Positions 23,908-48,195 of a stretch of 48,195 nt of DNA are shown piece by piece. Each line of letters opens with the position of its first letter. Positions within the stretch are counted from its first letter, which is position 1. A program made the translations under genes and the position numbers. The DNA comes from an uncultured Lachnospiraceae bacterium (GTDB taxonomy: Bacteria > Bacillota > Clostridia > Lachnospirales > Lachnospiraceae), in assembly GCA_902792005.1 (NCBI GenBank), contig CADAXW010000021.1, forward strand, positions 1 to 48,195. Direction: 5' to 3'. The notes below the pieces were generated by a model. The model was not told the origin of the DNA, ran no database searches, and was given only the letters and a program-made list of their open reading frames with translations.

Positions 23908-24049
23908 GTGACAAAGGGGACTGTCCCCATTGTCACGTTTTGCGCGTTAAAATGAGCCATGCACAACCGCCCCGTCACTGCTTTGCGCAAGCTTGCTTGC
24001 ATGCAAGGCAATGACGGGGCGTGACAAGCGGGACTGTCCCCTTTGTCAC
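23908..24049. repeat. Compound palindromic repeat, copy A (expanded centre)
   Basis: The outer hairpins are the usual GTGACAAAGGGGAC...GTCCCCATTGTCAC (23908-23936) and GTGACAAGCGGGAC...GTCCCCTTTGTCAC (24021-24049). The centre is not the normal 16-nt palindrome but about 84 nt holding its own hairpin, GCCCCGTCA (23969-23977) with TGACGGGGC (24012-24020). It lies between convergent genes, and its right edge contains the stop codon of the minus-strand synthetase gene. Confidence 0.85.
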
Positions 24050-25110
24050 GCCTGCTCTTTTTCCCTCAGTCGAAGGATGTGGTTTGCGTGCTGTTCTGCG
24101 CGTTTCGGTGTGGAATCGCCCAGCATGAAGAATACGATGAGCTGGCGGAGATTGTAATCTCCCCGGACTAGCTTTGCACGGCAGATATAGTATAGACCGA
24201 CGATGGAGGATAATTCATCCAGTGCGATGCCGGTCAGTGCCTGTTTTGCGAAGTACAGGGCATCATCCCGATTCTCTCTTACAAAGGTTCTCAGCTCACC
24301 CAGGGTGTGGATGTTGAAGAAGGCCAGATCCTGTAAGTAGGACTCCGGATCGGACTCGATGATCTTTGAGTTGTTGATGGCGGCGATGTCCGCCAGCAGC
24401 CGGTTCATACTCTGGCTCAGCTCCAGATATGCCTTCAGGGATACCAGATCCAGGGGCATGTCGTCTGCCTGATCGACTGCGATCTTCTCCCGCACCTCTG
24501 TTTCATACTGATGGATTGAGTTACGGATCCGGAGGAAGGATTCGTCAGCAATCTCCAGAAGACCTGCCACCCGGGAAAACTCCCGTCGTACATTTCTGGG
24601 GATACTGAACTCTGTTTTATAACCCAGATCGTGCTCGATCTCCGCCCAGGTATGCTGAAGAATGGTCCGGATCTGAATCTCAAACTTAAGGTCGGTCAGT
24701 TCTTCGGGGTAGGTTCCGTTTTTGGGAAGTGAGCAGATATAGTGAAGCGACAGGTATCCAAATGTGGTGGGATCCATCAGCTCGCGCTTGTCGCTGGACA
24801 GGGCAGTATCAACGTCCAGGATCTCCTCGATGAGAGCAGCGCTCTGATCCACCTGGTCCGTAAAATAGCAGATGATACGAATGCCCAGCATATCGTTGAG
24901 ATCATGGAGATTGTGATACTTATCCGGCTTTCTGGAAAGCTTTCCGATGGCGGATTCCGCTCCTTTGATGCGGTGCTCGATCTGCAGGGTTCGAATGCCG
25001 CCGTTCTTCAGGCCATCCCCCAGCAGCTTTACCACGATTTCCTCGAGCTGCCTGTATTTCTCCGACAGGCTGTTATATTCTTCCAGTCTCAGCTGATTGA
25101 TATTGTCCAT
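24046..25110 (-). CDS. RelA/SpoT-domain (p)ppGpp synthetase-like protein
   Basis: A 354-residue protein with the RelA/SpoT synthetase fold and no HD hydrolase, TGS or ACT domain. Synthetase blocks include YHNLHDLNDMLGIRIICYFTDQVD, GYLSLHYICSLP and FEIQIRTILQHTWAEIEHDLGYK, with the EIQIRT Glu and the downstream HxWAxxEHD signature. It would make (p)ppGpp from GTP/GDP and ATP. It is longer than RelP/RelQ-type small synthetases (about 210-230 residues), with an extra helical C-terminal half of unknown role. Start ATG 25110 has AAGGAG about 10 nt upstream; an in-frame ATG at 25146 has none. The stop TGA lies inside repeat copy A. Confidence 0.87.
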   Translation of the reverse strand: MDNINQLRLEEYNSLSEKYRQLEEIVVKLLGDGLKNGGIRTLQIEHRIKGAESAIGKLSRKPDKYHNLHDLNDMLGIRIICYFTDQVDQSAALIEEILDVDTALSSDKRELMDPTTFGYLSLHYICSLPKNGTYPEELTDLKFEIQIRTILQHTWAEIEHDLGYKTEFSIPRNVRREFSRVAGLLEIADESFLRIRNSIHQYETEVREKIAVDQADDMPLDLVSLKAYLELSQSMNRLLADIAAINNSKIIESDPESYLQDLAFFNIHTLGELRTFVRENRDDALYFAKQALTGIALDELSSIVGLYYICRAKLVRGDYNLRQLIVFFMLGDSTPKRAEQHANHILRLREKEQA

Positions 25111-25148
25111 AATCGCTGGTCTCCTTGGTTGCAAATTTATTTTCACCT

Positions 25149-25154
25149 ATTATA
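25149..25154 (-). promoter_or_regulatory. Candidate -10 for the synthetase gene
   Basis: TATAAT on the minus strand at 25149-25154 lies 38 nt upstream of the ATG. The -35 is not convincing. Confidence 0.4.
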
Positions 25155-25179
25155 AATGATGGATGAGAAAAAAACCACC

Positions 25180-25205
25180 CTGAATCATAGTCCTGAATCA
25201 TAGTC
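25180..25205. repeat. Tandem 13-bp duplication
   Basis: CTGAATCATAGTC is repeated exactly, head to tail (25180-25192, 25193-25205), in the divergent spacer between the synthetase gene and the fruK remnant. It could be an operator pair or a slippage product. Confidence 0.85.
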
Positions 25206-25252
25206 AAAAAACTTTTCCTGAAAATCTTTTAGTATCAAAAAAGACTCTGGCA

Positions 25253-29998: not shown

Positions 29999-30466
29999 AT
30001 GAAAGCATTGTTTGAAAAATATGGTGAAGTGATCCGGTATCTGATCATCGGCGGACTGACGACGTTGGTCAGCTTAGCCGTTTATTATGCATGCGTCTTT
30101 ACGTTTCTGGATGCGGAGGATGCAGTACAGCTCCAGGTGGCAAATGTTCTTTCCTGGATCGCAGCTGTCACATTTGCGTACTTTACAAACCGTGCCTTTG
30201 TTTTCCGGAGTCATAATAAAAATGTACTGAAGGAAGCGATCGCTTTCTATACCTCCCGGGTCGGTACACTTCTGATCGACATGGGACTCATGTTTCTCGG
30301 TGTAACCGTGTTCGGCTGGAATGACAAGGTCATGAAGATCGTGGTTCAGGTTGTGGTTACCATCGGAAACTATATCATAAGTAAGTTCTTTGTATTTAAC
30401 AAAAAGGATGAGCAGGAGTCAGAGGAGCAGGAGTCTAAGGAGCAGAAGAAAGAGGAGCAGTCGTGA
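29999..30466 (+). CDS. GtrA-family membrane protein (lipid-linked sugar flippase)
   Basis: The 155-residue protein has four hydrophobic helices and the GtrA pattern (FEKYGEVIRYLIIGGLTTLVSLAVYYA, NVLSWIAAVTFAYFTNRAFVF, NYIISKFFVF). GtrA/GtcA proteins are proposed to flip undecaprenyl-phosphate sugar to the outer face. The tail (about 135-155) is an unusual Glu/Gln/Lys/Ser-rich repeat, EQESEEQESKEQKKEEQ. The stop overlaps the yfhO GTG start by 4 nt (GTGA), so the two are translationally coupled. Confidence 0.9.
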   Translation: MKALFEKYGEVIRYLIIGGLTTLVSLAVYYACVFTFLDAEDAVQLQVANVLSWIAAVTFAYFTNRAFVFRSHNKNVLKEAIAFYTSRVGTLLIDMGLMFLGVTVFGWNDKVMKIVVQVVVTIGNYIISKFFVFNKKDEQESEEQESKEQKKEEQS

Positions 30467-33465
30467 ATAAGGTCGCTGACAGGATATGGGAATTCAGACG
30501 TGTTTTTCCGGGAGATCTGAATAAAAAACGTAATTTTTATACCGCATACACAGTACTCTTTCTGTTGGCGGGTCTTCTTGTGTTTGGCTGGATCTTGTTG
30601 TCCGGACATACGACTGTCTGGGAGGTTGATGGTTATTCTCAGCACCTGAAGGCGTATGAGTATTGGGGCACCTATCTTCGGAATCTGGTTCGCTCCATTT
30701 TCGGCGGAGAAGGAAATGGTTTTCAGGAATGGGACTTCTCTCTGGGTGAGGGAAGCGATATTCTGCAGACCATGCAGTTCTATGTGATCCTGGATCCCTT
30801 TGCTCTTATCATGGCCGTTGTTCCCCACAGCCTTTCCTATCTGGCTTATGGGGCGCTTATGTTTGTCCGCCTTTATTTTGCAGGACTCGCATTTTCAGCA
30901 CTTTGTACCTATACCGCGCCGAAGAGCAACAGGTGGGGTATCCTTGCCGGATCCCTCGCTTATGTATTCGGTGTCTGGTCGATCGTGAATGTCGCCCGAC
31001 ATCCGTTTTTCCTGAATCCAATGGTCTTCTTCCCACTGATCATTTTAGGCGTGGAGAAGATACTGAAGGAAGGAAGAACCAAGGTGTTTATCTTTGGCGT
31101 CTTTCTTTCCGCACTCAGCAATTTCTATTTTTTCTACAACATCGTTTTACTGACAGTGATTTACGTGCTCACCCGGTTGATCTATGTGTACCGGAAAGAA
31201 CTCAAAACACTGTTTCTTAAGCTGCTTCAGATCGCCGGGGCTGCGATCCTCGGAACAGCCATGGCAGCCGCCATTGTGCTGCCCACCGCGCTGATCTTCC
31301 TGGCAGATTCCAGAGCAGATATGGTAATCCCCTTCTATTTGTTTTATGATCGTTCCTACTATAGTTCTCTTCTGGGAATGATATTCGGTGGTGAAAATGT
31401 TCTCTGGCTGTGCGTCGGAACCGTTGCTCCGGGTGTTGTTGCAACGATCCTGCTGCTCACGAAGAGAAAGAAGCACACCTGTCTTAAGATCCTTCTTCTC
31501 ATCTGCCTCATCATTACACTGTTCCCTGTATTCGGACAGATTCTGAACGGCATGTCATACATGTCCAATCGCTGGAGCTGGGCTTATATCCTGTTGTCAT
31601 CCTATATTCTTGCCATCATGTGGCAGGATATCTTTCAAATGGCAAAAAAGGAGATCAAATGGATCGCTGCCATCCTGTGTGTATGTCCGGTCCTTATGAT
31701 CTTTCTGGATGGTTCCCATTCTGCATCCGATCTTGCGGGTCTGGCACTGTCGATCCTTGCTTTGTTCGTTCTGGCCCTTGGAAGGTGGAAGGAAGCAAAG
31801 AATGAAGCAGGGGATGTTGAAAGCGGAAGCGAGAAGAAAGGCTTGTATCGCTGGAAGCAGCCGTTTATTCTCTGCATCACAGTATTTCATTTATTTACAT
31901 TCTGCTGGTTTTACTATGCTGAGGTGGATTCAGAGACCGGCAAGAAGAGGATCCTGGAGCTGATGGATGCGAATGAGGTCAAGGAGGATCTGAAGGAAAC
32001 CGAGGTGGTCCGTTCCTATGCAGCGGAGGATGGGGTGACTGGTTTTTATCGTTATTCCGGCGGCCTCAACTGGAATGAGCATACTCTGGGCGGGTTGTCA
32101 AACCCCGGCTATTACTGGTCGGTTTCCAATCCCTCCAACTCGGAATTCCTGAAAAAAATGGGGATCACGGACAGTGTTCTTCACCAGCACTGGGGAAATG
32201 ATAATAAAACGGCTCTTATGACTACGGGAACCGTGCGATATATCGTTTCACAGGGAAAGGTAACCAATAAGCCCTTCGGTTTTAGAAAGGCGGGAACCTA
32301 CGACCGAAATGAAGATGTTGTAACTCTGAAGAAGAATGCTGCAGAAGCAGGACTGGGTAAGACATTAACGGAAGAACAGCAGCTCTCCCTCAAATCCGAT
32401 GACTCGAATGTTTGGAACATTTACAGGAATAAGTATTCTCTCCCCCTTGGGTATTTCACAGCGAATGTGATCCCGGAGGAAACCTGGAAGGATTATAACT
32501 TCACCCAGCGGCAGGAAGGGATGATGCAGGGTATCCTTCTGTCCATGGATACCGGGATCGCGGCATCCTATACACCGGAGTTCGACAGCAAGGAACTCGA
32601 GTATGACATAGAGTTTGACAGCGTTGATGTAACGAAGGAAGGCAATACATTTACGGTAACAAAACCGGATGCAACCATCACCCTCAAGGTGAAGAATGCG
32701 CCTTTGACCAGTGAGAACTATTTGGAGCTTAGAGGCGTGGACATTAAGCTGTATGACGAGTATGATCTCTACTTCGGAGATGAGGAACAGGACCCGCTCA
32801 ACCTTTATACAAAGGAAATGTGGGATAAGCTTCCCGTCAATCGCAGGGATGCCATTCTCGAGGAAAGAAAGGAAGATGTTGACGGTAATAGTGCTACACT
32901 GGTATTCAAGACCGCAAATGAAGAAGCCTTAAGTACAGAAGTCAGAAGAGTAAAAATCTACAGGGAGAAAAACGCCTGGTATTCCGGACAGAAGGACTAT
33001 GCGGTCAATCTCGGATATCAGCGGGAGGCGGTTGAAACAATCGTGATGAAATTCCCGTATGTCGGAAAGTATACCTTTGATTCGCTGAAGGTCGTTTCCT
33101 ATCCGATGAACAATTATGTGAAGAATGTAAAGAAGCTGGCGAAGTACCCCATGGAGAATGAGTCCATTGAGACGGATACGGTAAAGGGAACCATCAAGGC
33201 CCCGTCTGATGGTATGCTGTGTCTTGCCATCCCGTATGCCAAGGGCTGGGAAGCCTATGTAGACGGTGAGAAAACGGAGATCTATCAGGCAAATATCCGT
33301 TATATGGCAGTCCCGGTGAAGAAGGGACAGCATGAGATCAAGCTGGAGTACAAAACACCGTATTTAAGGATCGGCGCACTGGTGTCTGCGGGAAGCATTT
33401 TCGTGTTTGTAGCCGGAACGGTTGTTGTTGCAATCGTGAGAAGAAGAAAGAAAAAGAAGGCGTGA
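30463..33465 (+). CDS. YfhO-family membrane glycosyltransferase (paralogue 2)
   Basis: The 1000-residue protein is colinear with the YfhO protein at 20861 (WEVDGYSQHLKAYEYWGTYLR; FQEWDFSLGEGSDILQTMQFYVILDPF; WSWAYILLSSYILAIMW). It has about 12 N-terminal helices, a large exported domain and a C-terminal helix plus basic tail. In the operon context it would transfer the flipped sugar onto a surface polymer such as teichoic acid. GTG 30463 overlaps the gtrA stop. Its final Ala codon and TGA (33463-33465) belong to repeat copy B, so the insertion defined or redefined the end of the protein. Codon choice is more AT-rich than in paralogue 1. Confidence 0.88.
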   Translation: MNKVADRIWEFRRVFPGDLNKKRNFYTAYTVLFLLAGLLVFGWILLSGHTTVWEVDGYSQHLKAYEYWGTYLRNLVRSIFGGEGNGFQEWDFSLGEGSDILQTMQFYVILDPFALIMAVVPHSLSYLAYGALMFVRLYFAGLAFSALCTYTAPKSNRWGILAGSLAYVFGVWSIVNVARHPFFLNPMVFFPLIILGVEKILKEGRTKVFIFGVFLSALSNFYFFYNIVLLTVIYVLTRLIYVYRKELKTLFLKLLQIAGAAILGTAMAAAIVLPTALIFLADSRADMVIPFYLFYDRSYYSSLLGMIFGGENVLWLCVGTVAPGVVATILLLTKRKKHTCLKILLLICLIITLFPVFGQILNGMSYMSNRWSWAYILLSSYILAIMWQDIFQMAKKEIKWIAAILCVCPVLMIFLDGSHSASDLAGLALSILALFVLALGRWKEAKNEAGDVESGSEKKGLYRWKQPFILCITVFHLFTFCWFYYAEVDSETGKKRILELMDANEVKEDLKETEVVRSYAAEDGVTGFYRYSGGLNWNEHTLGGLSNPGYYWSVSNPSNSEFLKKMGITDSVLHQHWGNDNKTALMTTGTVRYIVSQGKVTNKPFGFRKAGTYDRNEDVVTLKKNAAEAGLGKTLTEEQQLSLKSDDSNVWNIYRNKYSLPLGYFTANVIPEETWKDYNFTQRQEGMMQGILLSMDTGIAASYTPEFDSKELEYDIEFDSVDVTKEGNTFTVTKPDATITLKVKNAPLTSENYLELRGVDIKLYDEYDLYFGDEEQDPLNLYTKEMWDKLPVNRRDAILEERKEDVDGNSATLVFKTANEEALSTEVRRVKIYREKNAWYSGQKDYAVNLGYQREAVETIVMKFPYVGKYTFDSLKVVSYPMNNYVKNVKKLAKYPMENESIETDTVKGTIKAPSDGMLCLAIPYAKGWEAYVDGEKTEIYQANIRYMAVPVKKGQHEIKLEYKTPYLRIGALVSAGSIFVFVAGTVVVAIVRRRKKKKA

Positions 33466-33535
33466 CAAAGGGGACAGTCCCCGTTGTCACGTTTTCCCGG
33501 GGAAACGTGACATTGGGGACTGTCCCCTTTGTCAC
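33462..33535. repeat. Compound palindromic repeat, copy B
   Basis: A 74-nt element: hairpin GTGACAAAGGGGAC/GTCCCCGTTGTCAC, central GTTTTCCCGGGGAAAC, hairpin GTGACATTGGGGAC/GTCCCCTTTGTCAC. It begins in the stop codon of yfhO-2 and ends 26 nt before the glnN start codon, leaving almost no separate room for a glnN promoter. Confidence 0.9.
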
Positions 33536-33561
33536 GCTTTGTGAGAATAAAGGAGGAATCT

Positions 33562-35656: not shown

Positions 35657-35676
35657 ACCACGAAGTGTGACACAGC

Positions 35677-35750
35677 GTGACAAAGGGGACTGTCCCCATT
35701 GTCACGTTTTCCCAGGAAAACGTGACAAGCGGGACAGTCCCCTTTGTCAC
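35677..35750. repeat. Compound palindromic repeat, copy C
   Basis: The 74-nt element (GTGACAAAGGGGAC...GTCCCCATTGTCAC, centre GTTTTCCCAGGAAAAC, GTGACAAGCGGGAC...GTCCCCTTTGTCAC) lies between convergent glnN copy 1 and the Feo accessory gene. The TGA of that accessory gene (35747-35749) is inside it. On the plus strand GCTTTTTTCCC follows the right hairpin, giving a plausible U-tract. Confidence 0.9.
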
Positions 35751-35911: not shown

Positions 35912-35923
35912 AGGCAGCTCCTT

Positions 35924-38238: not shown

Positions 38239-38277
38239 AAATGTTCCATCCGTTCGGTTCTTGATTAGACTCATTTG

Positions 38278-38306: not shown

Positions 38307-38328
38307 TGAAGGCGCTCACCGGAAGAGT

Positions 38329-38402
38329 GTGACAAAGGGGACAGTCCCCATTGTCACGTTTTCCCGGGAAAACGTGACAAGCGGGACTGTCCCCTTTGTC
38401 AC
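38329..38402. repeat. Compound palindromic repeat, copy D
   Basis: A 74-nt element with a perfect centre, GTTTTCCCGGGAAAAC. It lies between the divergent promoters of feoAB and the GtrII-like gene, 23 nt from the feoAB -35 and 17 nt from the other -35. Confidence 0.92.
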
Positions 38403-38419
38403 ACTTTCGCCCAAATAAA

Positions 38420-38448
38420 TTGACAATCAAGGGGGCAGTGTGTAAAAT
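38420..38448 (+). promoter_or_regulatory. Sigma-A promoter for the GtrII-like gene cluster
   Basis: Consensus -35 TTGACA (38420-38425), 17-bp spacer ending TGTG, and -10 TAAAAT (38443-38448). The start codon is 66 nt further on. Confidence 0.75.
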
Positions 38449-38514
38449 ATTAAGGATAGTGCATTACTATGCGCTTTAAAGGAAATTGTAAGAAAAAGGG
38501 GCATATTTATTATT

Positions 38515-40194
38515 ATGATGGGAGCATGGGACAGGCTGAAAAAAATGTTTTCGGATAAGACGAGTCGGAACATTTTTTTGTATACTTTTATTTGCGGGTT
38601 GATGGCACATGGCTTCGTGTTTTTCAATAAGCTGGCGTGGCATGATGAACTGCAGCACGGCTTCCGACTTTCTGCATCCCGGGTTATGGCCCTTGGAAGA
38701 TGGCTTCGTGCCGGCCTTGGCTGGATCGTGGCCAAGCTGTTCGGAGACTACAATCTGAGCCTGCCATGGGTTCATGGCCTGATCTCCGTATTCTTTATCT
38801 CTCTTTCGGTTCTGCTGATCATCCGACTGTTTCATATCAGGGAAAAGGCATACCAGATCCTGGTGGCCGGTCTTCTTGTATCCTTCCCGGTTGTGGCATC
38901 CACCTTCGGATATATGTTTACGGCACCCTATTATTTCATCGCACTGTTCCTGTCTGTATGGGCAGTTTATCTTACGTACCGGATGAAAAATGTATGGGGT
39001 CTTATTTTAGGAGCGGGTCTTATCTGTTCGAGCATGGCCATCTATCAGCCCTACGTGGGGGTTGCGGCTTCGCTCTTTGTGATCCTGCTCATCATTGATA
39101 TCGCAAAGAATCGGTATAACGGCGTTGCCGGTATCTTCAAGCATGGCTTCTACTACCTGAGCACCTGCCTGGGCGGTGTGGTCGGTTATATGGTCATGTG
39201 GAAGGTGACCATGGCGATCTTCGGGATCAAGGCCGGAGATTATCAGGGCATTTCCTCCATGGGCGAGGGCGGCATCGGCAAGTACTTCGATGGCGTGGCA
39301 AGGGCTTATAAGAGCTTTCTTATGCAGTTTGAAAACCCCATCGAGGATGTGTATCCCATGTCCCTCTCCGTGGTCCAGTGGATCATCATCATCGGCAGCC
39401 TTCTGCTGGGACTCTATCTGGCGGGCCGCCAGTTTAAGAAGCATAAGGGACAGGCAGTTCTGATGCTTCTTTTGATCGCGATCCTTCCCCTGGCATTAAA
39501 TGTGGTCTATGTCATGGCATCCTCTTCCGCGGAGTCAAAGGTTCACTCCCTGATGCTTTACGGAATGGCCATGTTATATGTGTTCTTTATCTGTGCCCTC
39601 AGAGAGGTGACGAAGCGAAAGACGGATACGGTATTTGATCCAAAATCCGCGGAGGAAGTAAAGATTCCGGAAGCGGCAGAGGCTTCGGAAGATACAAAGG
39701 ATTCGGAAGAGGCAGAAGCGCCGGAGAATGAAAAGCGCAAATTCCGCCCCGCCGGTCTTATCGCCGGTCTGGCAACGGCTGTCCTGTTTGTTGCCATGTT
39801 CATGATGATCTATATCAGCAACGCGGCCTATCTTCGTGCCGACATGCAGCAACAGCAGGCCATCAGTGATCTGACGGTGCTGACCGCCAAGATCAAGACG
39901 CTGGATGGTTATACGGATAACATGAAGGTCTGCTTCGTCATGGAGGGAAAGCGTGACAAGACCCGGACATCCAATAAGGAGTTCGCGAATATCACATTTA
40001 TGCCCTATACGAATGTGTACCCGTATCATAATCAGAGAAATGTGGCGAACTTCCTGGAGCACTGGTGCGGCTTTGCCCCCACCTATGTAAGTCAGAAGCA
40101 GTTTAAGGACCGGGAAGAGGTAAAGGCCATGCCATCCTATCCGGATGACGGAAGTATAAAGATCATTGATGATACCGTCGTGATCAAGTGGTAA
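38515..40194 (+). CDS. GtrII-like membrane glucosyltransferase
   Basis: The 559-residue protein has about ten membrane helices and an early acidic loop (HDELQHGFRLSASRVMALGRW). The last helix (LIAGLATAVLFVAMFMMIYISNAAYLR) precedes an exported domain of about 120 residues. The pattern, including WVHGLISVFFISLSVLLI and VASTFGYMFTAPYYF, fits the GtrII family, which transfers glucose from undecaprenyl-phosphate glucose to O-antigen or other surface polymers. An Ala/Glu/Ser-rich cytoplasmic insert (IPEAAEASEDTKDSEEAEAP) lies before the last helix. It begins a four-gene plus-strand cluster ending in a GtrB-like loader (42665), its likely donor enzyme. ATG 38515 or 38518 both fit. Confidence 0.8.
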   Translation: MMGAWDRLKKMFSDKTSRNIFLYTFICGLMAHGFVFFNKLAWHDELQHGFRLSASRVMALGRWLRAGLGWIVAKLFGDYNLSLPWVHGLISVFFISLSVLLIIRLFHIREKAYQILVAGLLVSFPVVASTFGYMFTAPYYFIALFLSVWAVYLTYRMKNVWGLILGAGLICSSMAIYQPYVGVAASLFVILLIIDIAKNRYNGVAGIFKHGFYYLSTCLGGVVGYMVMWKVTMAIFGIKAGDYQGISSMGEGGIGKYFDGVARAYKSFLMQFENPIEDVYPMSLSVVQWIIIIGSLLLGLYLAGRQFKKHKGQAVLMLLLIAILPLALNVVYVMASSSAESKVHSLMLYGMAMLYVFFICALREVTKRKTDTVFDPKSAEEVKIPEAAEASEDTKDSEEAEAPENEKRKFRPAGLIAGLATAVLFVAMFMMIYISNAAYLRADMQQQQAISDLTVLTAKIKTLDGYTDNMKVCFVMEGKRDKTRTSNKEFANITFMPYTNVYPYHNQRNVANFLEHWCGFAPTYVSQKQFKDREEVKAMPSYPDDGSIKIIDDTVVIKW

Positions 40195-40220
40195 TACCCG
40201 GGACGGACAGGAAGAAAGAA

Positions 40221-40242
40221 AAAGAGAGAATAAAGAGAGAAT
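40221..40242. repeat. Tandem 11-bp duplication in a leader
   Basis: AAAGAGAGAAT occurs twice in tandem between the GtrII-like gene and the pyruvyl-transferase-family gene, inside the likely ribosome-binding region. Confidence 0.8.
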
Positions 40243-40251
40243 AAAGACAGT

Positions 40252-41373
40252 ATGAAAAGCGTAGAAAACTCAGAGAACAAAGTGAATCAGACAGTAGCCG
40301 GAAAAACAGGGATCATAACCTTTCACTTTGTAAATAACTTCGGCGGGGCACTCCAGGCTTATGCGCTTCGAAAGTACGTGTCCGCCCGGTTCTGTTCGGA
40401 TACGGGACTGGTGGATTACCGGCACTGGTTCATCCGGTTTACGGATGCTGTGCGCATGCTGCCCATAACAACGAACTTCAGGTATTATGGGCCGTGGTTC
40501 GGCGCATTTCCGAAGATCCTGAAGCGGAGGAGAAAGTTTTCTGCGTTTGCTAAACGGGAGCTTCAGCTGTCCGATCGGGTGAATCGGGAAGGCGGACTTA
40601 AGAAGCTGGGAGAGGATTATCAGTACCTGATCTGCGGCAGCGATCAAATCTGGAATCCCACCATCACGCTGGGGCTGTCCAAGCCTTACTTCCTCACCTT
40701 TGCGCCGGAGGGCTGCAGAAAGTTTTCCTATGCGGCCAGCGTGGGAACGGTGAAGCCGGCGAAGCAGAAGACCATGCTGGGCTATCTGAAGGATCTGGAC
40801 GCAGTTTCCATCCGCGAGAAGGTGGACTGGATCGATGATGAGCCGTCTCTTGACGTTCATCATAACATCGACCCCACATTTCTTCTGGAGACGGAGGAGT
40901 GGAAGTCCATGGCAAGACTTCCGAAGAAGAAGCAGAAGTATATCCTGACCTACTTCATGCAGAAGAACGAGGATTCCTATCCCACCATTCAGGCCATCAA
41001 GAATAAAAAGAACTGCAAGGTGGTGGAGATCAGCCGCTATGGTTACAAGGCGGACTGCGTTGATAAGGTCATGGTGGATGTGGGACCGGAGGAGTTTGTC
41101 GGACTCTTCTCGGGGGCATCCCATATCTGCACAAACTCCTTCCACGGTCTGGTGTTCGGTGTGATCTTCAATAAGAGTGTCGATTTTATTCCGATCAAGA
41201 AGTTCGGAGGGCGGATCGAAGCACTGTGTGAGCTGCTTCACCTGACGAAGGTTCCGGTGGACGGAGGAAGGTACTTCCACATCGAGTATGATCCGGAGGA
41301 AGTGAAGGCCATTATAGCCAGAGAGCGGGAAAAGACTTATTCCTATCTGGAGAAAGCGTTTAAGAGCGAATGA
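40252..41373 (+). CDS. Polysaccharide pyruvyl transferase family protein
   Basis: The 373-residue protein has the family's N-terminus (GIITFHFVNNFGGALQAYALRKYV), the block YLICGSDQIWNPTITLGLSKPYFL, and the C-terminal THICTNSFHGLVFGV-like segment (ASHICTNSFHGLVFGVIFNKSVDFI). Characterised members add pyruvate ketals from phosphoenolpyruvate to sugars of surface polysaccharides. Many clostridial members, paired like this with an FrhB-like Fe-S protein, are uncharacterised. The stop overlaps the next gene start (ATGA), so the two are tightly coupled. No membrane segments. Confidence 0.87.
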   Translation: MKSVENSENKVNQTVAGKTGIITFHFVNNFGGALQAYALRKYVSARFCSDTGLVDYRHWFIRFTDAVRMLPITTNFRYYGPWFGAFPKILKRRRKFSAFAKRELQLSDRVNREGGLKKLGEDYQYLICGSDQIWNPTITLGLSKPYFLTFAPEGCRKFSYAASVGTVKPAKQKTMLGYLKDLDAVSIREKVDWIDDEPSLDVHHNIDPTFLLETEEWKSMARLPKKKQKYILTYFMQKNEDSYPTIQAIKNKKNCKVVEISRYGYKADCVDKVMVDVGPEEFVGLFSGASHICTNSFHGLVFGVIFNKSVDFIPIKKFGGRIEALCELLHLTKVPVDGGRYFHIEYDPEEVKAIIAREREKTYSYLEKAFKSE

Positions 41374-42638
41374 TAAAGATTACGAAAAAGGAAATGTGCT
41401 GCGCCTGCAGTGCATGTGCGAAAATCTGTCCTGTGGGATGTATCTCCATGAAGGAGGATGAGGAAGGCTTCCTTTATCCCTCCGTGGATGAAGCGCGGTG
41501 TGTTCACTGTGGAAAATGTGAGTCCGTCTGCCCCATTCTCCGGGTGGATCGTGGAGAGCCGGAGACGGAGGGGCTGAAGCCGGAGCCGGAGGCTCTGGGA
41601 GGATGGCACCGGGATGAGAAGGTCCGGGAAGCATCCTCCAGCGGCGGCGCATTTACGCTGCTTGCTGACCTGATCCTGGAGAAGGGTGGTGTCGTATTCG
41701 GCGCAGCTCTGGTGGATCTCACAGTACGCCATATCGCCGTAACGGACAGGGAGGGCCTGGAGGCTCTCAGGGGCTCCAAGTATGTGCAGAGTGAAGTGGG
41801 AGATTCCTATTCCCAGGTGAAGGAATATCTTGAGCAGGGAAGAGAGGTACTCTTCTCCGGAACGCCCTGTCAGACAGCGGGTCTTCGAACCTTCCTGGGA
41901 AAGGAATATGAAAACCTGTATCTGGTGGATTTCATCTGCCACGGTGTTCCCTCTCCCAAGGTGTTCAGAGAGTATATAAAGAGCGTTGAAAAGAAAGAAA
42001 ATGCGGAGGTGGTTGACTTCCGGTTCCGCATGAAGGATAAGGGCTGGCATCCTTCGGGACTCCAGCTGGGAACGAATACAACACTGTCGAACGGGAAAGA
42101 GATCCGGAAGTATCCGGCCATGAAGGACAGTTATATGAATGCCTTTCTGGAGAATCTGGACCTTCGGCCCTCCTGCTACGAATGCAGGTTCAAGCAGGTG
42201 CCCAAGTGGGGCGCGGATATCACCATCGCTGATTTCTGGGGCGTGACAAAGGCTGTCCCCGAGCTGAATGATAAAAAGGGTACTTCCCTGGTTCTCCTTA
42301 ATACGGAGAAGGGATCCCGGCTGTTTGATGCAGGAAAGACGGAGTTCCATTTCAGGGAGACTGACTGGCAGACTGCCACAAAAAAGAATCCCACACTGGT
42401 CCGTCCGGCGAAACGCCCGTCCCTTCGGGATCGGTTCTTCCCCGAGCTGGAACAGCTGGGCTATGATAAGGTGGCAAAGAAGCATCTGTCCTTCGGGACT
42501 ACATTTGTCCGGAAAAGCTTTGGTATCGTGAGCGGAAAGCTGCGGCAGAAGAAGCTGATGCGGTGCGTGAAGGTCCTTGCAGCAGCTGCAGGCGCTGTGG
42601 CCGTTTGGTGCTTCTTCCGAAGAGGAAAGAAGAATTAG
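41370..42638 (+). CDS. FrhB-like Fe-S protein of polysaccharide cluster (F420 hydrogenase/dehydrogenase beta-subunit family)
   Basis: The 422-residue protein starts with two 4Fe-4S motifs (CCACSACAKICPVGC and CVHCGKCESVCP, residues about 9-50). The family's core follows (SSGGAFTLLADLILEKGGVVFGAAL, LRGSKYVQSEVGDSY, VLFSGTPCQTAGLRTFLG, VDFICHGVPSPKVF, YECRFKQVPKWGADITIADFWGV). A C-terminal hydrophobic helix (VLAAAAGAVAVWCFF) with a basic end suggests membrane tethering, which is not universal in the family. Methanogen relatives use F420, but in Firmicute glycan clusters the cofactor and reaction are unknown. The 4-nt overlap with the pyruvyl-transferase-family gene points to a joint redox step on a surface sugar (inference). 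Confidence 0.87.
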   Translation: MIKITKKEMCCACSACAKICPVGCISMKEDEEGFLYPSVDEARCVHCGKCESVCPILRVDRGEPETEGLKPEPEALGGWHRDEKVREASSSGGAFTLLADLILEKGGVVFGAALVDLTVRHIAVTDREGLEALRGSKYVQSEVGDSYSQVKEYLEQGREVLFSGTPCQTAGLRTFLGKEYENLYLVDFICHGVPSPKVFREYIKSVEKKENAEVVDFRFRMKDKGWHPSGLQLGTNTTLSNGKEIRKYPAMKDSYMNAFLENLDLRPSCYECRFKQVPKWGADITIADFWGVTKAVPELNDKKGTSLVLLNTEKGSRLFDAGKTEFHFRETDWQTATKKNPTLVRPAKRPSLRDRFFPELEQLGYDKVAKKHLSFGTTFVRKSFGIVSGKLRQKKLMRCVKVLAAAAGAVAVWCFFRRGKKN

Positions 42639-42664
42639 AAAGATCAGAAAGGACGGTAATCTGA

Positions 42665-43798
42665 ATGATGCCAAGACCGAAGGAATTGTCCGTAGTGGTT
42701 CCCTGCTACAATGAGGAGGAGGCCCTACCCATCTTTTACAACACGGTGACGGAGATCGTAAAGTCCATGGGGATCACATATGAGCTGGTTCTGGTGGATG
42801 ACGGATCCTCGGATCATACGCTGGATATCATGAGAGATCTGGCAAGACGCGATCCGGCAGTCCGTTACTTCTCCTTCTCCAGAAACTTTGGAAAGGAAGC
42901 GGCCATTTTTGCAGGACTTCAGCAGGCCACCGGGGCATACGTGGCTCTGATGGATGCGGATCTGCAGGACCCGCCGGCCTATCTGCCTGAGATGCATAAG
43001 CTCCTGAAGACAGGGGAGTATGACAATGTGGCAACCCGCCGGGCAACCCGGAAGGGAGAACCGAAGATCCGGTCCTTCTTTGCACGGCGTTTCTATAAGA
43101 CCATCAACCGTATGACGGATACGGAGATCGTGGACGGTGCAAGAGACTTCCGCATGATGAGCCGGAAGATGGTGAATGCCATCCTGAAGGTGGGAGAGTA
43201 CAACCGTTTCTCCAAGGGACTTTTCAGCTGGGTGGGCTTTAAGACCTACTGGCTGTCCTATGACAATGTGGAGCGTGTGGCAGGCCAGACCAAGTGGAGC
43301 TTCTGGAAGCTCCTGAAGTATGCCATCGACGGCATCATCAATTATTCCCATGCTCCGTTAAATGTGGCGACCAACGCGGGTATCATCTTTACCATCATCG
43401 CATTCATCTGGATGATCGTGCTGATCCTGAAGCGGATCATCATCGGCGGATACAATGTATCCGGCTGGACCTCCACCATGTGCGTGATCCTGTTCATGGG
43501 CGGAATTCAGCTGATCTCCATCGGTATCATGGGACAGTATATCGCAAGGATCTTCCTGGAGACCAAGCACAGACCCATCTACATCGTGGGAGAGTCCAGC
43601 GATGAATTTGAGAATCAGAGCAGGATCCCCAAGGGGAATTGGGAGGACAGGAGTGCAGGAAAACCTGCAGGAAAAACTGTAGATGTTCCGCCCCAGCCCT
43701 TCGCGGTTGGAACCGGCGGAAGCGGGCAGTACACGCCTCCGAAGGACCGCGGAAGTGCGAAGAATTCCCAGATCCCGGATCCCTTCCGTGAAGGCTAA
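42665..43798 (+). CDS. GT2 undecaprenyl-phosphate glycosyltransferase (GtrB/DPM1-like)
   Basis: The protein has 377 residues. The GT2 domain has LSVVVPCYNEEEALPIF, LVDDGSSDHT and the metal site LMDADLQDPP. Two C-terminal helices (NAGIIFTIIAFIWMIVLIL and CVILFMGGIQLISIGIMGQYIARIF) are followed by ETKHRPIYIV. It would load a sugar on undecaprenyl phosphate for the GtrII-like enzyme at 38515. A further 65-residue Pro/Gly-rich tail (VDVPPQPFAVGTGGSGQYTPPKDRG) is unusual. The homologue at 29046 lacks this tail and differs in sequence, so the window has two separate lipid-sugar loaders. The ribosome site is AAAGGACGG. Confidence 0.9.
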   Translation: MMPRPKELSVVVPCYNEEEALPIFYNTVTEIVKSMGITYELVLVDDGSSDHTLDIMRDLARRDPAVRYFSFSRNFGKEAAIFAGLQQATGAYVALMDADLQDPPAYLPEMHKLLKTGEYDNVATRRATRKGEPKIRSFFARRFYKTINRMTDTEIVDGARDFRMMSRKMVNAILKVGEYNRFSKGLFSWVGFKTYWLSYDNVERVAGQTKWSFWKLLKYAIDGIINYSHAPLNVATNAGIIFTIIAFIWMIVLILKRIIIGGYNVSGWTSTMCVILFMGGIQLISIGIMGQYIARIFLETKHRPIYIVGESSDEFENQSRIPKGNWEDRSAGKPAGKTVDVPPQPFAVGTGGSGQYTPPKDRGSAKNSQIPDPFREG

Positions 43799-43801
43799 CG
43801 T

Positions 43802-43875
43802 GTGACAAAGGGGACAGTCCCCATTGTCACGTTTTCCCGGGAAAACGTGACAAAAGGGACTGTCCCCTTTGTCAC
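43802..43875. repeat. Compound palindromic repeat, copy E
   Basis: A 74-nt element with centre GTTTTCCCGGGAAAAC; the right hairpin begins GTGACAAAAGGGAC. It lies 4 nt after the GT2 stop and 27 nt before the amtB-proximal promoter. Confidence 0.92.
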
Positions 43876-43902
43876 GGGAAACAAAAAAAATAAAAAAAGG
43901 TA

Positions 43903-43931
43903 TTGACAGATAAAAAATCTGGTCGTATAAT
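43903..43931 (+). promoter_or_regulatory. Perfect consensus sigma-A promoter upstream of amtB
   Basis: TTGACA (43903-43908), exactly 17 bp, TATAAT (43926-43931), preceded by an A-rich UP-like tract (43881-43898). The expected transcription start is near 43938. Confidence 0.9.
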
Positions 43932-43950
43932 TCGTCACATAAAAGGCAAG

Positions 43951-43984
43951 GGCGTCTTGGAGTATTTCTCCGAGACGCCTTTTT
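43951..43984 (+). terminator. Promoter-proximal intrinsic terminator (attenuator or end of a tiny RNA)
   Basis: A 12-bp stem with one G-T pair (GGCGTCTTGGAG at 43951-43962 with CTCCGAGACGCC at 43968-43979), a TATTT loop, then TTTTTAT. It begins about 13 nt after the predicted start of transcription, so most transcripts from the consensus promoter would stop after roughly 45-50 nt unless the hairpin is suppressed. Confidence 0.82.
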
Positions 43985-44184
43985 ATATTTTGCCGGGACT
44001 GATCAGAAGCCGCGTGCCGCCTGGATGGCGACAAGGCGAATGGAAGATGGTCAGTGACCCGCGCAGCGATGCAATGGTGTTTCGTTATGTAGGGAGAGCG
44101 CAGCACCGCCGGCATTCGCTCAGCACTTCACGCATACGAAGAGTTCATCGCAAATGAACAGAAATGAAAGTGAGGTGCATGTAA
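43985..44184 (+). other. 200-nt untranslated leader of amtB
   Basis: The 386-nt gap between the GT2 gene and amtB holds repeat E, the promoter, the terminator and this leader. The leader has no ORF with a ribosome site. Small stems are visible, for example CGCC/GGCG around TGGAT (about 44021-44033) and GAGCG/CGCTC (about 44096-44121). No second consensus promoter was seen. It may be a regulatory 5' untranslated region. Confidence 0.4.
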
Positions 44185-45945
44185 ATGCTAGAGGAATTAC
44201 TCGGAAAATTAGACGGAGAACTATTTGCGGTCTGGTTCCTGATCGGAGCCGCGCTGGTGTTCTGGATGCAGGCCGGTTTTGCAATGGTGGAGACCGGATT
44301 TGCAAGAGCAAAGAATGCAGGAAACATCCTGATGAAGAACCTGATGGATTTCTGTATCGGTTGTGTGGTTTTTATCCTGATCGGATTTGGACTTCTGCTT
44401 GGAGAAGACCTGTTTGGCTTCATCGGTGAGCCGGGCTTCGACATTTTCACAAAATATGAAAACTTCGACTGGTCGAATTTCGTATTTAACCTTGTGTTCT
44501 GTGCAACAACGGCAACCATCGTATCCGGTGCCATGGCAGAACGTACAAAGTTCCTCAGCTACTGTGTATATTCAGCGGTTATTTCCGCTTTGATCTACCC
44601 CATCGAGGCACACTGGATCTGGGGCGGCGGCTGGCTCGCAGAGCTGGGCTTCCACGATTTCGCAGGTTCCTGTGCGATCCACATGGTTGGTGGTATCGCA
44701 GCCTTCATCGGAGCAAAGATGGTAGGCCCCAGAATCGGAAAGTTCGAGAGAGACTCGAAGGGTAAAGTAACAAAGGTAAATGCATTCCCGGGTCACAACC
44801 TGGTAATCGGTGCACTCGGCGTTTTCATCCTCTGGCTTGGATGGTACGGCTTCAACGGAGCAGCTTGTACAAGCGTAGATCAGCTGGCATCCGTATTTCT
44901 AACAACAACCGTCGCACCTTCCGTAGCAACGGTTGTCTGCATGATCTTCACCTGGATCCGCTATGGTAAGCCTGATGTGTCCATGTGTCTCAACGCATCA
45001 CTGGCAGGTCTGGTAGCCATCACGGCAGGATGTGATGTAACAGATGCTCTGGGAGCTTCCGTCATCGGTGCAGTCGCAGGTGTTCTGGTCATCTTCGGTG
45101 TATGGCTTCTGGATTACAAGCTTCATATCGACGATCCGGTTGGTGCATGTGCAGTTCATATGCTGAACGGTATCTGGGGAACCATCGCAGTTGGTCTTTT
45201 TGCAACCACAACGGCTCCCGGAAATGATAAACTCAGCGGTCTCTTCTACGGCGGCGGAGCTGAGCTTCTCGGAAAGCAGCTTCTTGGTTTTGTAACAGTC
45301 GCAGCATGGACGACAGTCGGAATGATCATAGTATTCGCCCTGATCAAAAAGATCTTCGGTCTTCGGGTTTCCGAGGAGGAAGAGCTGGAAGGTCTGGACC
45401 TGACAGAGCATGGTCTTGCATCTGCATACTCCGGTTTCAGTATCGTTGATATGTCAAGTGCAATGATGAGCGAGAACGAGAACACCAGCCTTGGTGTAAG
45501 CGATTATGACGAGGCAAGTGAAGCGAAACGGAACGCAGCGGTTCCGGTGGAAAATGTATCGGCGGCCATGGCGGGTATGATCCCCGACAGTGGCATCAAC
45601 AAGGTAGTCATCATAACGAAGCTGTCACGGTACGACAAGATCAAACGTGCCCTGAACAACCTGGGTGTCACCGGTATCACGGTAACACAGGTCAGCGGCT
45701 GTGGTATCCAGAAAGGTACCGGCGAGATGTACCGTGGAGTTGAGATGGATATGACCCTTCTTCCGAAGATCAAGCTGGAGGTAGTGGTAAGCGGCATCCC
45801 CGTTGACAGCGTGATCGAAACTGCGAAGAAGACACTTTACACCGGTAAGATCGGTGATGGTAAGATCTTTGTATATCCGGTAAGCCGGGTAGTAAAGATA
45901 AGAACGGGCGAGGAAAACTACGATGCATTACAGGATGTAGAGTAG
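44185..45945 (+). CDS. amtB: Ammonium transporter with fused C-terminal PII domain
   Basis: The 586-residue protein is a fusion. Residues 1-400 are an Amt channel of eleven helices (FAVWFLIGAALVFWMQAGFAMVETGFARAKN, the pore His in AIHMVGG and AVHMLNG, LVIGALGVFILWLGWYGFNG). After a linker, residues about 471-586 are a GlnB/GlnK domain (NKVVIITKLSRYDKIKRALNNLGVTGITVTQVSGCG...). The PII T-loop reads GEMYRGVEMDMTLLPK. The position of the uridylylated Tyr51 of enteric PII is Met, so modification there is unlikely. Normally GlnK plugs AmtB when nitrogen is plentiful; fusion makes the regulator part of the channel. It lies 93 nt upstream of glnN copy 2, with which it is probably co-transcribed. Confidence 0.93.
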   Translation: MLEELLGKLDGELFAVWFLIGAALVFWMQAGFAMVETGFARAKNAGNILMKNLMDFCIGCVVFILIGFGLLLGEDLFGFIGEPGFDIFTKYENFDWSNFVFNLVFCATTATIVSGAMAERTKFLSYCVYSAVISALIYPIEAHWIWGGGWLAELGFHDFAGSCAIHMVGGIAAFIGAKMVGPRIGKFERDSKGKVTKVNAFPGHNLVIGALGVFILWLGWYGFNGAACTSVDQLASVFLTTTVAPSVATVVCMIFTWIRYGKPDVSMCLNASLAGLVAITAGCDVTDALGASVIGAVAGVLVIFGVWLLDYKLHIDDPVGACAVHMLNGIWGTIAVGLFATTTAPGNDKLSGLFYGGGAELLGKQLLGFVTVAAWTTVGMIIVFALIKKIFGLRVSEEEELEGLDLTEHGLASAYSGFSIVDMSSAMMSENENTSLGVSDYDEASEAKRNAAVPVENVSAAMAGMIPDSGINKVVIITKLSRYDKIKRALNNLGVTGITVTQVSGCGIQKGTGEMYRGVEMDMTLLPKIKLEVVVSGIPVDSVIETAKKTLYTGKIGDGKIFVYPVSRVVKIRTGEENYDALQDVE

Positions 45946-45977
45946 GCCCGAAGGTAAAGGTTGGTTATGAGAGACGG

Positions 45978-45997
45978 CCCGGGGTCATTTCCCCGGG
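45978..45997 (+). other. GC-rich hairpin between amtB and glnN
   Basis: CCCGGGG (45978-45984) pairs perfectly with CCCCGGG (45991-45997) around TCATTT. An A-rich stretch, not T-rich, follows, so it is more likely an mRNA processing/stability element than a terminator. Confidence 0.5.
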
Positions 45998-46038
45998 TGC
46001 GGTCTGTGAAAAATAAAAAAACGAAAAGGAGAACTACT

Positions 46039-48141
46039 ATGGAAAAGGTAAATGTACCGGAGCTGTTTGGTTCACTGGTCTTCAATGACCGTGAGATGAA
46101 GGCAAGACTTTCGAAGGATGTTTATAAGTCTCTTCGTAAGACCATCGATGAAAATGTGCGTCTGGATGAGCAGGTTGCAGAGGCAGTGGCAAAGGAGATG
46201 AAGGAGTGGGCCATCGAGCATGGCGCAACACATTTCACACACTGGTTCCAGCCCCTGACAGGCGTGACAGCTGAGAAGCACGACAGCTTTATCGAGCCGA
46301 CAGGCGACGGCGGGGTACTGATGGAGTTCTCCGGAAAAGAACTGATCAAGGGTGAGCCGGATGCATCCTCCTTCCCCTCAGGCGGACTTCGCGCCACATT
46401 TGAGGCAAGAGGCTATACCGCATGGGATCCCACATCCTATGCGTTCATTAAGGATCATACCCTGTGCATCCCCACAGCCTTCTGCTCCTACTCAGGAGAG
46501 GCTCTGGATAAAAAGACACCGCTGCTTCGTTCCATGCAGGCCATCAACCGTGAGGCACTGCGTGTGCTGCGACTGTTCGGAAATACAGATGTTAAAAATG
46601 TCAGCACAAGCGTTGGTCCGGAGCAGGAATATTTCCTTATCGATCAGAAGCTCTTTAACCAGCGGACTGACCTGGTTTATACAGGACGTACCCTGTTCGG
46701 CTGCAGACCTCCGAAGGGGCAGGAGATGGACGATCACTACTTCGGTGTGATCAAGCCCCGTGTCATTGAGTATATGGAGGATCTGAATCAGGAGCTCTGG
46801 AAGCTGGGTATCCTTGCAAAGACAGAGCATAATGAGGTGGCTCCGGCACAGCACGAGCTGGCTCCCATTTATTCCACAACGAATATCGCAACTGACAACA
46901 ATCAGCTTACCATGGAGATCATGCAGAAGGTGGCAAAGCGCCATGGCATGGTATGTCTGCTTCATGAGAAGCCCTTCGCAGGTGTGAACGGCTCCGGTAA
47001 GCACAACAACTGGTCGATCTCCACGAACACAGGCGTGAACCTTCTTTCTCCGGGTGAAACACCCTACGAGAATGCACAGTTCCTTCTGTTCCTCTGTGCA
47101 GTCATCCAGGCAGTGGATGATTATCAGGATCTGCTTCGTCTGTCCGTAGCAACTGCAGGAAACGACCACAGACTTGGCGCAAATGAGGCGCCTCCGGCTA
47201 TCATTTCCGTATTCCTTGGCGAGGAGCTGACAGGTATCCTGAATGCCATCCGCGATGACAAGCCGTATGAGGGCGTTGAGAAGGTGATCATGAAGCTGGG
47301 CGTACATGTTCTGCCCCGGTTCTCCCGTGATACCACAGACAGAAACCGTACATCACCCTTCGCATTTACAGGAAACAAATTCGAGTTCCGTTCTCTGGGC
47401 TCCTCCAACAGCATTGCATGCGCAAATATCATGCTGAATGCAGCCGTTGCAGAAAGTCTGAGACAGTATGCAGATGAGCTGGAGAAGGCTGATGACTTTG
47501 AGACATCCCTCCACAACCTGATCAAGCGCGTGATCACAGAGCATCAGAGGATCCTCTTCGACGGAAACGGTTACGGCGAGGACTGGATCAAGGAAGCAAC
47601 CGAGGTTCGCGGACTGTCCAACCTGAAGACAACCGCAGACGCTATGCCGAAGCTTCTGGATCCGAAGAATAAGGAGATGCTGATCCGTCATAAGGTATTT
47701 AACGAGGCTGAGATCCAGTCCCGTTGCGAGATCATGCTGGAGAATTACTGCAAGACAGTCAATATCGAAGGTATGACCATGGTAGACATGGTACGTAAGG
47801 ATTACCTGCCGGCAATCGAAGAGTATCTGTATACTCTGGCCCGCGCAGTGGATTCCATGAAGTCCGTCAGCGAGAACGTAAAGTGCAGATATGAGATCTC
47901 CACCATCGAGAAGCTGACAGATCTGACAGATAACATCCTGACAGCAGTAGAAGCACTGGAGGAGGCACTGGCAGCACTGAAGGATTGCGAGGACATCTTT
48001 GCAACCTCCGAGGCCATCCGCGACTCCATCCTGCCCAGCATGAATACGCTCCGCGGCTATGTAGATGCAGCCGAGATGCTGACATCCGCAAAGTACTGGC
48101 CGTATCCGAGCTACGGCAAGCTGCTGTTCAGCGTGCAGTGA
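46039..48141 (+). CDS. glnN: Glutamine synthetase type III, intact copy 2
   Basis: A 700-residue GSIII, the large dodecameric form that makes glutamine from glutamate, ammonia and ATP. Active-site blocks are intact: [78 protein letters not shown] and [25 protein letters not shown] 46039 has AAAAGGAG 7 nt upstream; the frame is open to 45961 without a site. With the upstream Amt-PII fusion it forms an ammonium uptake and assimilation unit. It is closely related to the broken copy at 33562, implying duplication in this lineage. A repeat element (copy F) follows 13 nt after the stop. Confidence 0.96.
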
Positions 48142-48154
48142 ACAAATTGACAGT

Positions 48155-48195
48155 GTGACAACGGGGACAGTCCCTCTTGTCACGTTTTCCCGGGA
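48155..48195. repeat. Compound palindromic repeat, copy F (cut by window end)
   Basis: The left hairpin (GTGACAACGGGGAC/GTCCCTCTTGTCAC) and the first half of the centre (GTTTTCCCGGGA) are visible before the window ends. Confidence 0.88.

Follow-up and report, generated by a model that had tools for sequence, protein, structure and literature searches.

What kind of element is the palindromic repeat in the right half of this window, and what could have moved it? The window is the whole 48,195-nt stretch of DNA analyzed here, one contig among the 102 of a draft genome with a completeness of 92%. The original prediction described six 74-nt copies of constant architecture and likened them to the REP/BIME elements mobilized by a TnpA-REP (RAYT) transposase.

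Repeat copies in the window

We found the following features, all given on the plus strand.

23896..23901, +: GTGACA, apparently left over from another unit, with a TGA (23897-23899) that terminates the ORF at 20861-23899
23908..24049, +: long-form copy, shortened to 142 nt, consisting of a left arm, an insert of ∼84 nt, and a right arm
33462..33535, +: 74-nt doublet; its first GTGAC gives the TGA (33463-33465) that terminates the YfhO-family ORF at 30463-33465
35677..35750, +: 74-nt doublet, 20 nt past the stop of the ORF at 34352-35656 (C-terminal part of a type III glutamine synthetase)
38329..38402, +: 74-nt doublet, with a second, identical copy on contig C32
43802..43875, +: 74-nt doublet, 3 nt past the stop of the glycosyltransferase ORF at 42665-43798
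48155..48195, +: doublet truncated by the contig end after its first 41 nt, 13 nt past the stop of a second type III glutamine synthetase ORF at 45961-48141

Thus, four of the six predicted copies are full 74-nt doublets sharing one architecture, and a genuine but incomplete copy starts at 48155. The copy at 23908 belongs to a longer form, with its cores 113 nt apart rather than the 45 nt seen in the 74-nt doublets. It occupies the gap between two convergent ORFs, and its right end gives the TGA of the minus-strand ORF at 24046-25146 (RelA/SpoT domain). Within the window no copy lies before 23.9 kb, as predicted; with at least 64 repeat places in 2.30 Mb, 24 kb without a repeat at the window start appears unremarkable. 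Six places in 24 kb of the window is a notable density, and contig C31 has five in less than 13 kb.

A genome-wide repeat family

The 74-nt repeat is real, and its family is genome-wide. Exact matches to the arm numbered 112 in the 2.30-Mb draft, and a reversed control pattern gave none. Among the matches listed, at least 64 repeat places were distributed across 36 contigs, and the repeat is not peculiar to the contig on which it was noticed. These 64 listed places comprised 44 full doublets with 45-nt core spacing, 1 further doublet truncated by a contig start, 5 pairs with other spacings, and 14 single arms, including the truncated copy at 48155. With 14 singles to 50 pairs among the places listed, the ratio of singlets to doublets is below 2, as in REPINs. 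This census leaves out two core matches attributed to chance (L120 at 437 and L133 at 8578) as well as another single arm, on contig C95; the count of repeats at contig ends drew on nine hand-listed places. The long form is present elsewhere in the genome at 213 to 222 nt, with an unrelated insert.

The original prediction placed all distinguishable copies in one orientation. Judged by the bulge, this was so for the copies at 35677, 38329, and 43802, which are the orientable full copies in the window, but both orientations occurred genome-wide (16 versus 12, where contig orientation is arbitrary and 16 of the 44 doublets were unclassifiable and omitted). Orientation matched the local GC skew in 21 of the 28 classifiable copies; in 14 hand-picked copies, it had no association with the strand of the adjoining gene.

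Among the other genomes searched, just one (G224) had doublets of this family; it is a MAG, possibly contaminated by DNA of the source species. The doublet family is rare in sister species. Viral contigs, phages, and plasmids gave no match to the repeat. A search of the window against Rfam returned nothing at the gathering threshold. Four weak hits to microRNA models on long-form loci fell far below gathering scores, and we read them as generic hairpins.

Unit architecture and fold

Each unit of ∼29 nt consists of an outer stem, GTGACAA/TTGTCAC, enclosing the core GGGGACAGTCCCC, and two inverted units form the 74-nt doublet. Each arm is itself near-palindromic, and as in REPINs, the two inverted units can form one hairpin. 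The predicted RNA fold of the copy at 38329 had an energy of −66.1 kcal/mol (z = −14.0), equaled by none of 200 shuffles.

Covariation across the 44 doublets favors one long bulged hairpin of ∼78 to 80 nt over two independent hairpins. Under the long-hairpin model, 93.2% of the cells were paired, and 12 pairs were altered on both sides, a number matched by 2 of 500 shuffles. The covariation score was 0.107 versus 0.059 (0 of 500 shuffles) for the long hairpin and 0.055 versus 0.033 for the two-hairpin fold, which one slid control exceeded at 0.059. For instance, positions 11 and 70 formed A-T in 21 of the 44 doublets and C-G in another 18, while position 11 paired with its local partner, position 25, in 3 of 44. 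One measure, the number of further pair types in the long hairpin, did not rise above shuffles across the 44 doublets (21 versus 20.3; 214 of 500).

Motif class and the search for a transposase

The core GGGGACAG conforms to GGGGWSAS, the signature of repeats flanking genes for TIRYT-type tyrosine (Y1/HUH) transposases (PMC3733652, PMC6006769). This motif was present in 78 of 88 arms and in at least one arm of 41 of 44 doublets. In canonical REPs, the foot of the hairpin bears a GT[AG]G tag (PMC6006769); none of the 88 arms had this tag there, and 87 began with GTGA. Filing the repeats under REP/BIME is only partly supported: they are extragenic and palindromic, but their motif fits the GGGGWSAS class instead. 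Because of this motif and the layout, we place the element in the GGGGWSAS class as a REPIN-like doublet, a novel representative of an established type whose mechanism is inferred. In the literature we found, repeats of this class receive only brief treatment under the TIRYT name, and the words Firmicutes and Clostridi are absent from the 2013 main text (PMC3733652). PMC4853749 contains the core letters solely within a primer. In PMC6006769, 291 of 292 sequences of RAYT group 1 fall within TnpA-Y1 subclass 2.1, whose genes have no REP-like sequences reported beside them there, and the E. coli TnpA-REP enzyme belongs to subclass 2.2.

We examined the flanks of RAYT-like genes in the genus (20 of 24 loci, chosen by eye). 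Within 250 nt of these 20 genes, GGGAC was 5.4 times and GGGGWSAS 4.9 times denser than farther away; GGGAC was missing from this interval at 6 and GGGGWSAS at 9 of the 20 loci. At two loci (L091 and L093), the RAYT-like gene lies between complete doublets containing GGGGACAGTCCCC and GTGACAA, and at a third (L094) it lies between GTGACAAGGGGACAGGCACCTTGTCAC-type units. The encoded proteins look like subclass 2.1 members, a resemblance rather than a tree-based classification. It is important to note that they were chosen via Y1_Tnp, so this domain provides no independent support; matches to HTH domains were few and weak.

In the 92%-complete draft, neither Y1_Tnp (PF01797) nor a profile of the genus RAYTs had a match, and the profile also had none in G224, the only other doublet-bearing genome found. 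At that completeness, the negative for the draft is a weak one. The RAYT gene flanked by the same hairpins that the original prediction proposed to seek genome-wide did not appear: no TIRYT gene was found in the draft, and the units flanking RAYT-like genes of the genus are related rather than identical. Two candidate locations were rejected. In G205 and G237, two arms separated by ∼2.3 kb were considered as bounds of an autonomous insertion sequence, but the sequence of the enclosed gene reads as a GGDEF/EAL-type regulatory protein. At the repeated contig ends of C14, C18, and C17, we saw no transposase; the 92 nt that these ends have in common look like a gene's 3′ end.

The proposed RAYT link is supported in kind, given the inverted doublets, their hairpin and compensatory changes, their extragenic position, the lack of a constant target-site duplication, and the core next to many RAYT-like (Y1) genes of the genus, although the search of the draft did not find the enzyme itself. 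Our preferred reading, to which we assign a probability of roughly 0.72, is that the 74-nt sequence is a nonautonomous mobile element of the GGGGWSAS class, built as an inverted doublet and moved by a TIRYT-type Y1/HUH transposase (RAYT group 1, TnpA-Y1 subclass 2.1). In single-stranded DNA, the two units would pair into one long bulged hairpin; the transposase would have recognized this folded strand, cut at the hairpin feet, and inserted copies at further single-stranded sites, leaving the target unduplicated. Insertions on or immediately after stop codons would have been tolerated. The enzyme gene may be in the missing ∼8% of the draft, since genes enclosed by repeats can drop out during assembly or binning, or it may have been lost. 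We consider it rather unlikely, if worth stating, that the ∼60 REPIN-like elements persist after such a loss as portable gene-end modules kept by the host (a stop codon plus a bidirectional 3′ hairpin) or are moved in trans by the RAYT of a neighboring species. The genus has many RAYT-like loci with differing repeat tags and one common core, and this genome has a large doublet population with no visible enzyme; together, they make two questions accessible to testing: which portion of the repeat is recognized by the enzyme, and how a REPIN population fares once the enzyme has gone.

Insertion sites and alternative origins

No constant target-site duplication was found for the 44 doublets at lengths of 2 to 6 nt and offsets of 0 to 3. 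Flanking direct repeats of at least 3 nt occurred in at most 1 of 44 doublets at any tested offset and length. A 2-nt direct repeat at the extreme ends (23 of 44 doublets versus 18.3 expected) is due to the GC...GC ends, and copies ending in GT...AC lacked it. These results bear on whether the element is a MITE of a DDE-type insertion sequence, with the ∼37-nt arms as terminal inverted repeats and the DDE transposase elsewhere. Strong foldback, moderate copy number, and homogeneous sequence agree with such an origin, and the searches, which covered PF01797 and the genus RAYT profile, identified no autonomous partner. However, the absence of a constant duplication of 3 nt or more in the 44 doublets, the near-palindromic nature of each arm, and the match of the core to repeats adjoining Y1 genes in the genus make it quite improbable. 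We found no base-precise empty site, as syntenic relatives, including G246 and G247, have flanks that have diverged too far; in one near-identical relative, an arm occupies the corresponding position, adjoining a rearrangement.

Placement relative to genes was analyzed for the 49 of the 64 listed places with two called neighbors, 45 of which were used for distances. A stop codon lay within 20 nt of 37 of these 45 copies, compared with a mean of 20.8 and a maximum of 26 in 1,000 null placements. Start-side distances are unreliable because gene calls were simple longest-ORF calls of at least 90 or 100 amino acids. At nine places the TGA of the gene comes from the repeat. For HolA, close relatives end in ...LLAL or similar with a stop of their own, while the protein here ends in ...LLAKA with a TGA from the element; among 30 of 55 matches read, one of which was the protein itself, the C termini of the other 29 ranged in the alignment from 3 residues shorter to 5 longer than here.

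Neighboring genes were tail to tail at 23 of 49 repeat places, compared with 12 of the 99 remaining gaps within these loci, and the spacing of some convergent pairs barely exceeds the element. Together with the RNA fold of −66 kcal/mol, this agrees with a host function that now keeps the copies, whatever moved them, as 3′-end hairpins (message stabilizers or bidirectional terminators) and ready stop codons between convergent genes. We regard that explanation as very unlikely, since selection against insertions elsewhere would give the same placement, none of 15 terminator-like sites in 33000-48195 lay on an element, and the copy at 43802 is followed by a terminator-like hairpin of its own kind, distinct from the element (43948-43982). 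In that interval, no element scored as an intrinsic terminator. Binding sites of a chromosome-organizing or regulatory protein, spread by recombination rather than transposition, would suit the near-perfect core palindrome and the agreement of orientation with GC skew, but are highly improbable because the rarity in sister species, the unrelated insert of the longer form, and the stop codons supplied at insertion points all indicate insertion of DNA.

Comparison with known systems

The REP/BIME elements of E. coli, with their TnpA-REP, are likewise extragenic, palindromic, and interspersed, and they lie near gene 3′ ends, like the elements here. They differ in motif and tag, and the E. coli enzyme is of subclass 2.2 whereas the genus enzymes here are apparently of subclass 2.1.

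REPINs (Bertels and Rainey 2011, PMC3116915) are likewise inverted doublets forming one hairpin with compensatory changes across it, have conserved ends and a variable spacer, outnumber singlets, and come close in size (doublets of 71 bp in one of their groups, 74 nt here). Our elements differ in that no GT[AG]G-tagged REP or RAYT was found and in that copies are concentrated at stop codons.

The third comparison is with the terminal inverted repeats of TIRYT genes. Our elements differ from these in their outer stem GTGACAA, in an additional longer form with an insert, and in a genome where no TIRYT gene was found. They share with them the GGGGWSAS motif, self-complementary units, dimers, and moderate copy number, and flanks of this type often occur beside RAYT-like genes of the genus.

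A genome-wide repeat family

The 74-nt repeats form a new GGGGWSAS-class family resembling REPINs (inverted doublets of REP sequences), expanded in one species. The window is one contig (C21) of a draft genome (2.30 Mb, 102 contigs, 92.28% complete) in which the palindromic arm GTGACANNNGGGACWGTCCCNNNTGTCAC had 112 exact matches and a reversed control pattern had none. We took a census of the surroundings of 64 places over 36 contigs, the window included. Full doublets with a core spacing of 45 nt occupied 44 places, with a mean column identity of 91%; the others comprised 1 doublet truncated where its contig starts, 5 pairs with different core spacings (113, 184, 185, 185, and 193 nt), and 14 single arms, among them the truncated doublet at window position 48155. 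The original prediction of six 74-nt copies in the window was correct in substance but erred at 23908, which is a member of a longer form. The copies and other features of the window are as follows.

11033-11096: tandem pair of a 32-nt unit, 81% alike (repeat family D9)
20861-23899 and 30463-33465: a pair of YfhO-family membrane proteins whose stops are the TGA within GTGACA; the first contains 18-nt tandem repeats at 22180-22287 (repeat family D5)
23908: longer-form copy, cores 113 nt apart rather than 45
33462, 35677, 38329, and 43802: 74-nt copies, GTGACAAAGGGGACAGTCCCCATTGTCAC-GTTTTCCCGGGAAAAC-GTGACAAGCGGGACTGTCCCCTTTGTCAC or near variants
33529-34347 and 34352-35656: type III glutamine synthetase in two ORFs, followed by a repeat
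44185-45945: ORF for an ammonium transporter whose C terminus carries a P-II domain (residues 472-576) in the same protein, adjoining the next feature
45961-48141: second type III glutamine synthetase, a single ORF, also followed by a repeat
48155: 41 nt only, truncated by the contig end

Just past the stop syntenic to window position 43798, a relative without the doublet (locus L192) has GTGACAAAGGG at roughly the same position, which may be a decayed unit or chance.

At 13 places, an arm is followed by an insert starting near ATGAGCCATGC. Four of these are complete (213 to 222 nt), the window copy is shortened to 142 nt, and eight have one arm only, including at least one (L145) that reaches a contig end. 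The two forms have their arms in common but not what lies between, which suggests that the mobile part is the arms.

Fold of the doublets

Covariation across the 44 doublets supports one long hairpin, in which 93.2% of cells were paired. Its covariation score was 0.107 versus 0.059 in shuffles (0 of 500), and 12 pairs were altered on both sides (equaled in 2 of 500 shuffles), although such shuffle counts exaggerate significance because the copies are related. Further pair types were no more numerous than in shuffles (214 of 500). The layout originally proposed, two 29-nt hairpins around a 16-nt palindrome, scored 0.055 versus 0.033, and 0.059 when slid by two columns. The clearest single sign of covariation is at columns 11 and 70, which alternate between A-T (21/44) and C-G (18/44). 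Columns 24 to 26 form a bulge, with column 25 unpaired in 35 of 44 copies. Pairing continues 2 to 3 nt outside the element: positions -1 and +1 were complementary in 93% of copies (61% expected), with 77% at -2 (70% expected), 52% at -3 (39% expected), and no excess over expectation at -4.

Position relative to genes and replication

For the 49 places with two called neighbors, 23 lay between converging genes, 22 between same-strand genes, and 4 between diverging genes, compared with 12, 69, and 18, respectively, among 99 other gaps from the same loci. A stop codon was found within 20 nt at 37 of 45 places (null mean, 20.8, and null maximum, 26, in 1,000 random placements inside the same gaps). 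At nine places, eight of them confirmed in a further check, the TGA in the element's own GTGAC is the gene's stop codon. One such gene is, we presume from its sequence, that for DNA polymerase III delta (HolA). Each of the 29 HolA homologs examined in the genus stops at its own stop codon, and the closest (∼60 to 63% identity) mostly terminate in ...LLAL, ...LLEL, or ...LMAL, whereas HolA of the window's genome terminates in ...LLAKA, followed by the element; it looks as if the element inserted at a native stop.

Enzymes that use single-stranded lagging-strand DNA are expected to leave a replication-linked orientation. With the bulge as the guide to orientation, 21 of the 28 copies that could be classified agreed in sign with the GC skew around them (binomial P = 0.013; Fisher P = 0.02), a weak signal under a single definition of orientation that hints at such a link. 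Orientation was not associated with the side of the neighboring gene (14 copies, 7 versus 7).

Distribution among relatives

The exact arm had no match in 199 other genomes sampled from the family. A laxer half-arm search (up to 2 mismatches) found matches in 7 of 60 other genus genomes, six with 1 to 4 each and one, G224, with 12 and 10; the reversed control had a single match, in genome G237. Among 84,980 species genomes, a search that may omit records of the window's own genome, the exact paired-arm pattern occurred only in the Eubacterium sp. RUI538 MAG (4 doublets on 3 contigs), which we take to be G224. Two of these three contigs are 97 to 98% identical to the draft over parts (1,626 nt at 97.1%; 918 nt at 98.1%, adjoining 1,721 nt at 92.0%), and a separate 92% copy of one such region sits on another G224 contig. 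For these reasons, G224 likely holds misbinned DNA from the window's species or a close relative.

Compared with locus L117, a close relative at L051 (4930-5026) has an extra half unit of ∼23 nt at the same insertion site, which suggests that arms can be gained or lost singly. Near position 876 of L210 (contig C95), homology to a near-identical relative ends at a repeat arm, likely a rearrangement breakpoint. Single arms flank one regulatory gene at matching places in two sister species (L049, 4324 and 6621; L050, 144 and 2440), so that certain insertions may predate the two species.

Candidate transposase

A target-site duplication of constant length was absent, with repeats of at least 3 nt in at most 1 of 44 doublets; the 2-nt GC repeat at the ends of 23 of 44 reflects their palindromic nature. 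The absence counts against a DDE transposase and is consistent with Y1/HUH enzymes, which, judging from the anatomy and from relatives, would mobilize the element. The RAYT (Y1/HUH tyrosine transposase) gene that the original prediction linked to the repeats did not appear: neither the PF01797 (Y1_Tnp) profile nor profile A1, built from 11 RAYT-like proteins of the genus, matched the 92.28%-complete draft, and A1 did not match G224. PF01797 matches occur in 36 of the 61 genomes of the genus and in 115 of the 200 of the family. In the draft, at least eight contig ends are no more than 200 nt away from an element (nine hand-listed places), and assembly or binning could therefore have dropped a RAYT gene that such repeats enclose.

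We examined the regions on either side of 20 RAYT-like genes from the genus, at loci that are partly nonindependent (L091 and L093 are near-identical). GGGAC occurred at 7.0 per kb within 250 nt versus 1.3 per kb beyond, with at least one copy within 250 nt at 14 loci, and GGGGWSAS at 1.4 versus 0.3 per kb farther away (11 loci). At L091 and L093, complete doublets with GGGGACAGTCCCC and GTGACAA flank the gene on both sides; the gene at L094 has GTGACAAGGGGACAGGCACCTTGTCAC-type units. Helix-turn-helix (HTH) matches at E values of 0.01 or better were few (HTH_23 in 3 of 11 proteins) and, in the single protein examined in full, C-terminal and below Pfam cutoffs.

Comparison with known repeats

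In the accessible text of papers found by searching for the core letters GGGGACAGTCCC and GGGGACAG, REPINs with RAYTs in Firmicutes, and Lachnospiraceae palindromes, the 74-nt family was not found; it looks undescribed in that literature, and the kind itself is known. REPINs are defined as inverted REP doublets in which compensatory changes are common (PMC3116915), and work on their persistence raises RAYT loss as a model extension (PMC8049555). A classification study assigns 20 of 26 TIRYT genes to subclass 2.1, which has HTH domains at the C terminus, and it reports that genes of this subclass have no REP-like sequences next to them (PMC6006769). TIRYT is the name given to RAYT-like genes with terminal inverted repeats; some of the flanking repeats have GGGGWSAS in common, and many form dimers or clusters (PMC3733652).
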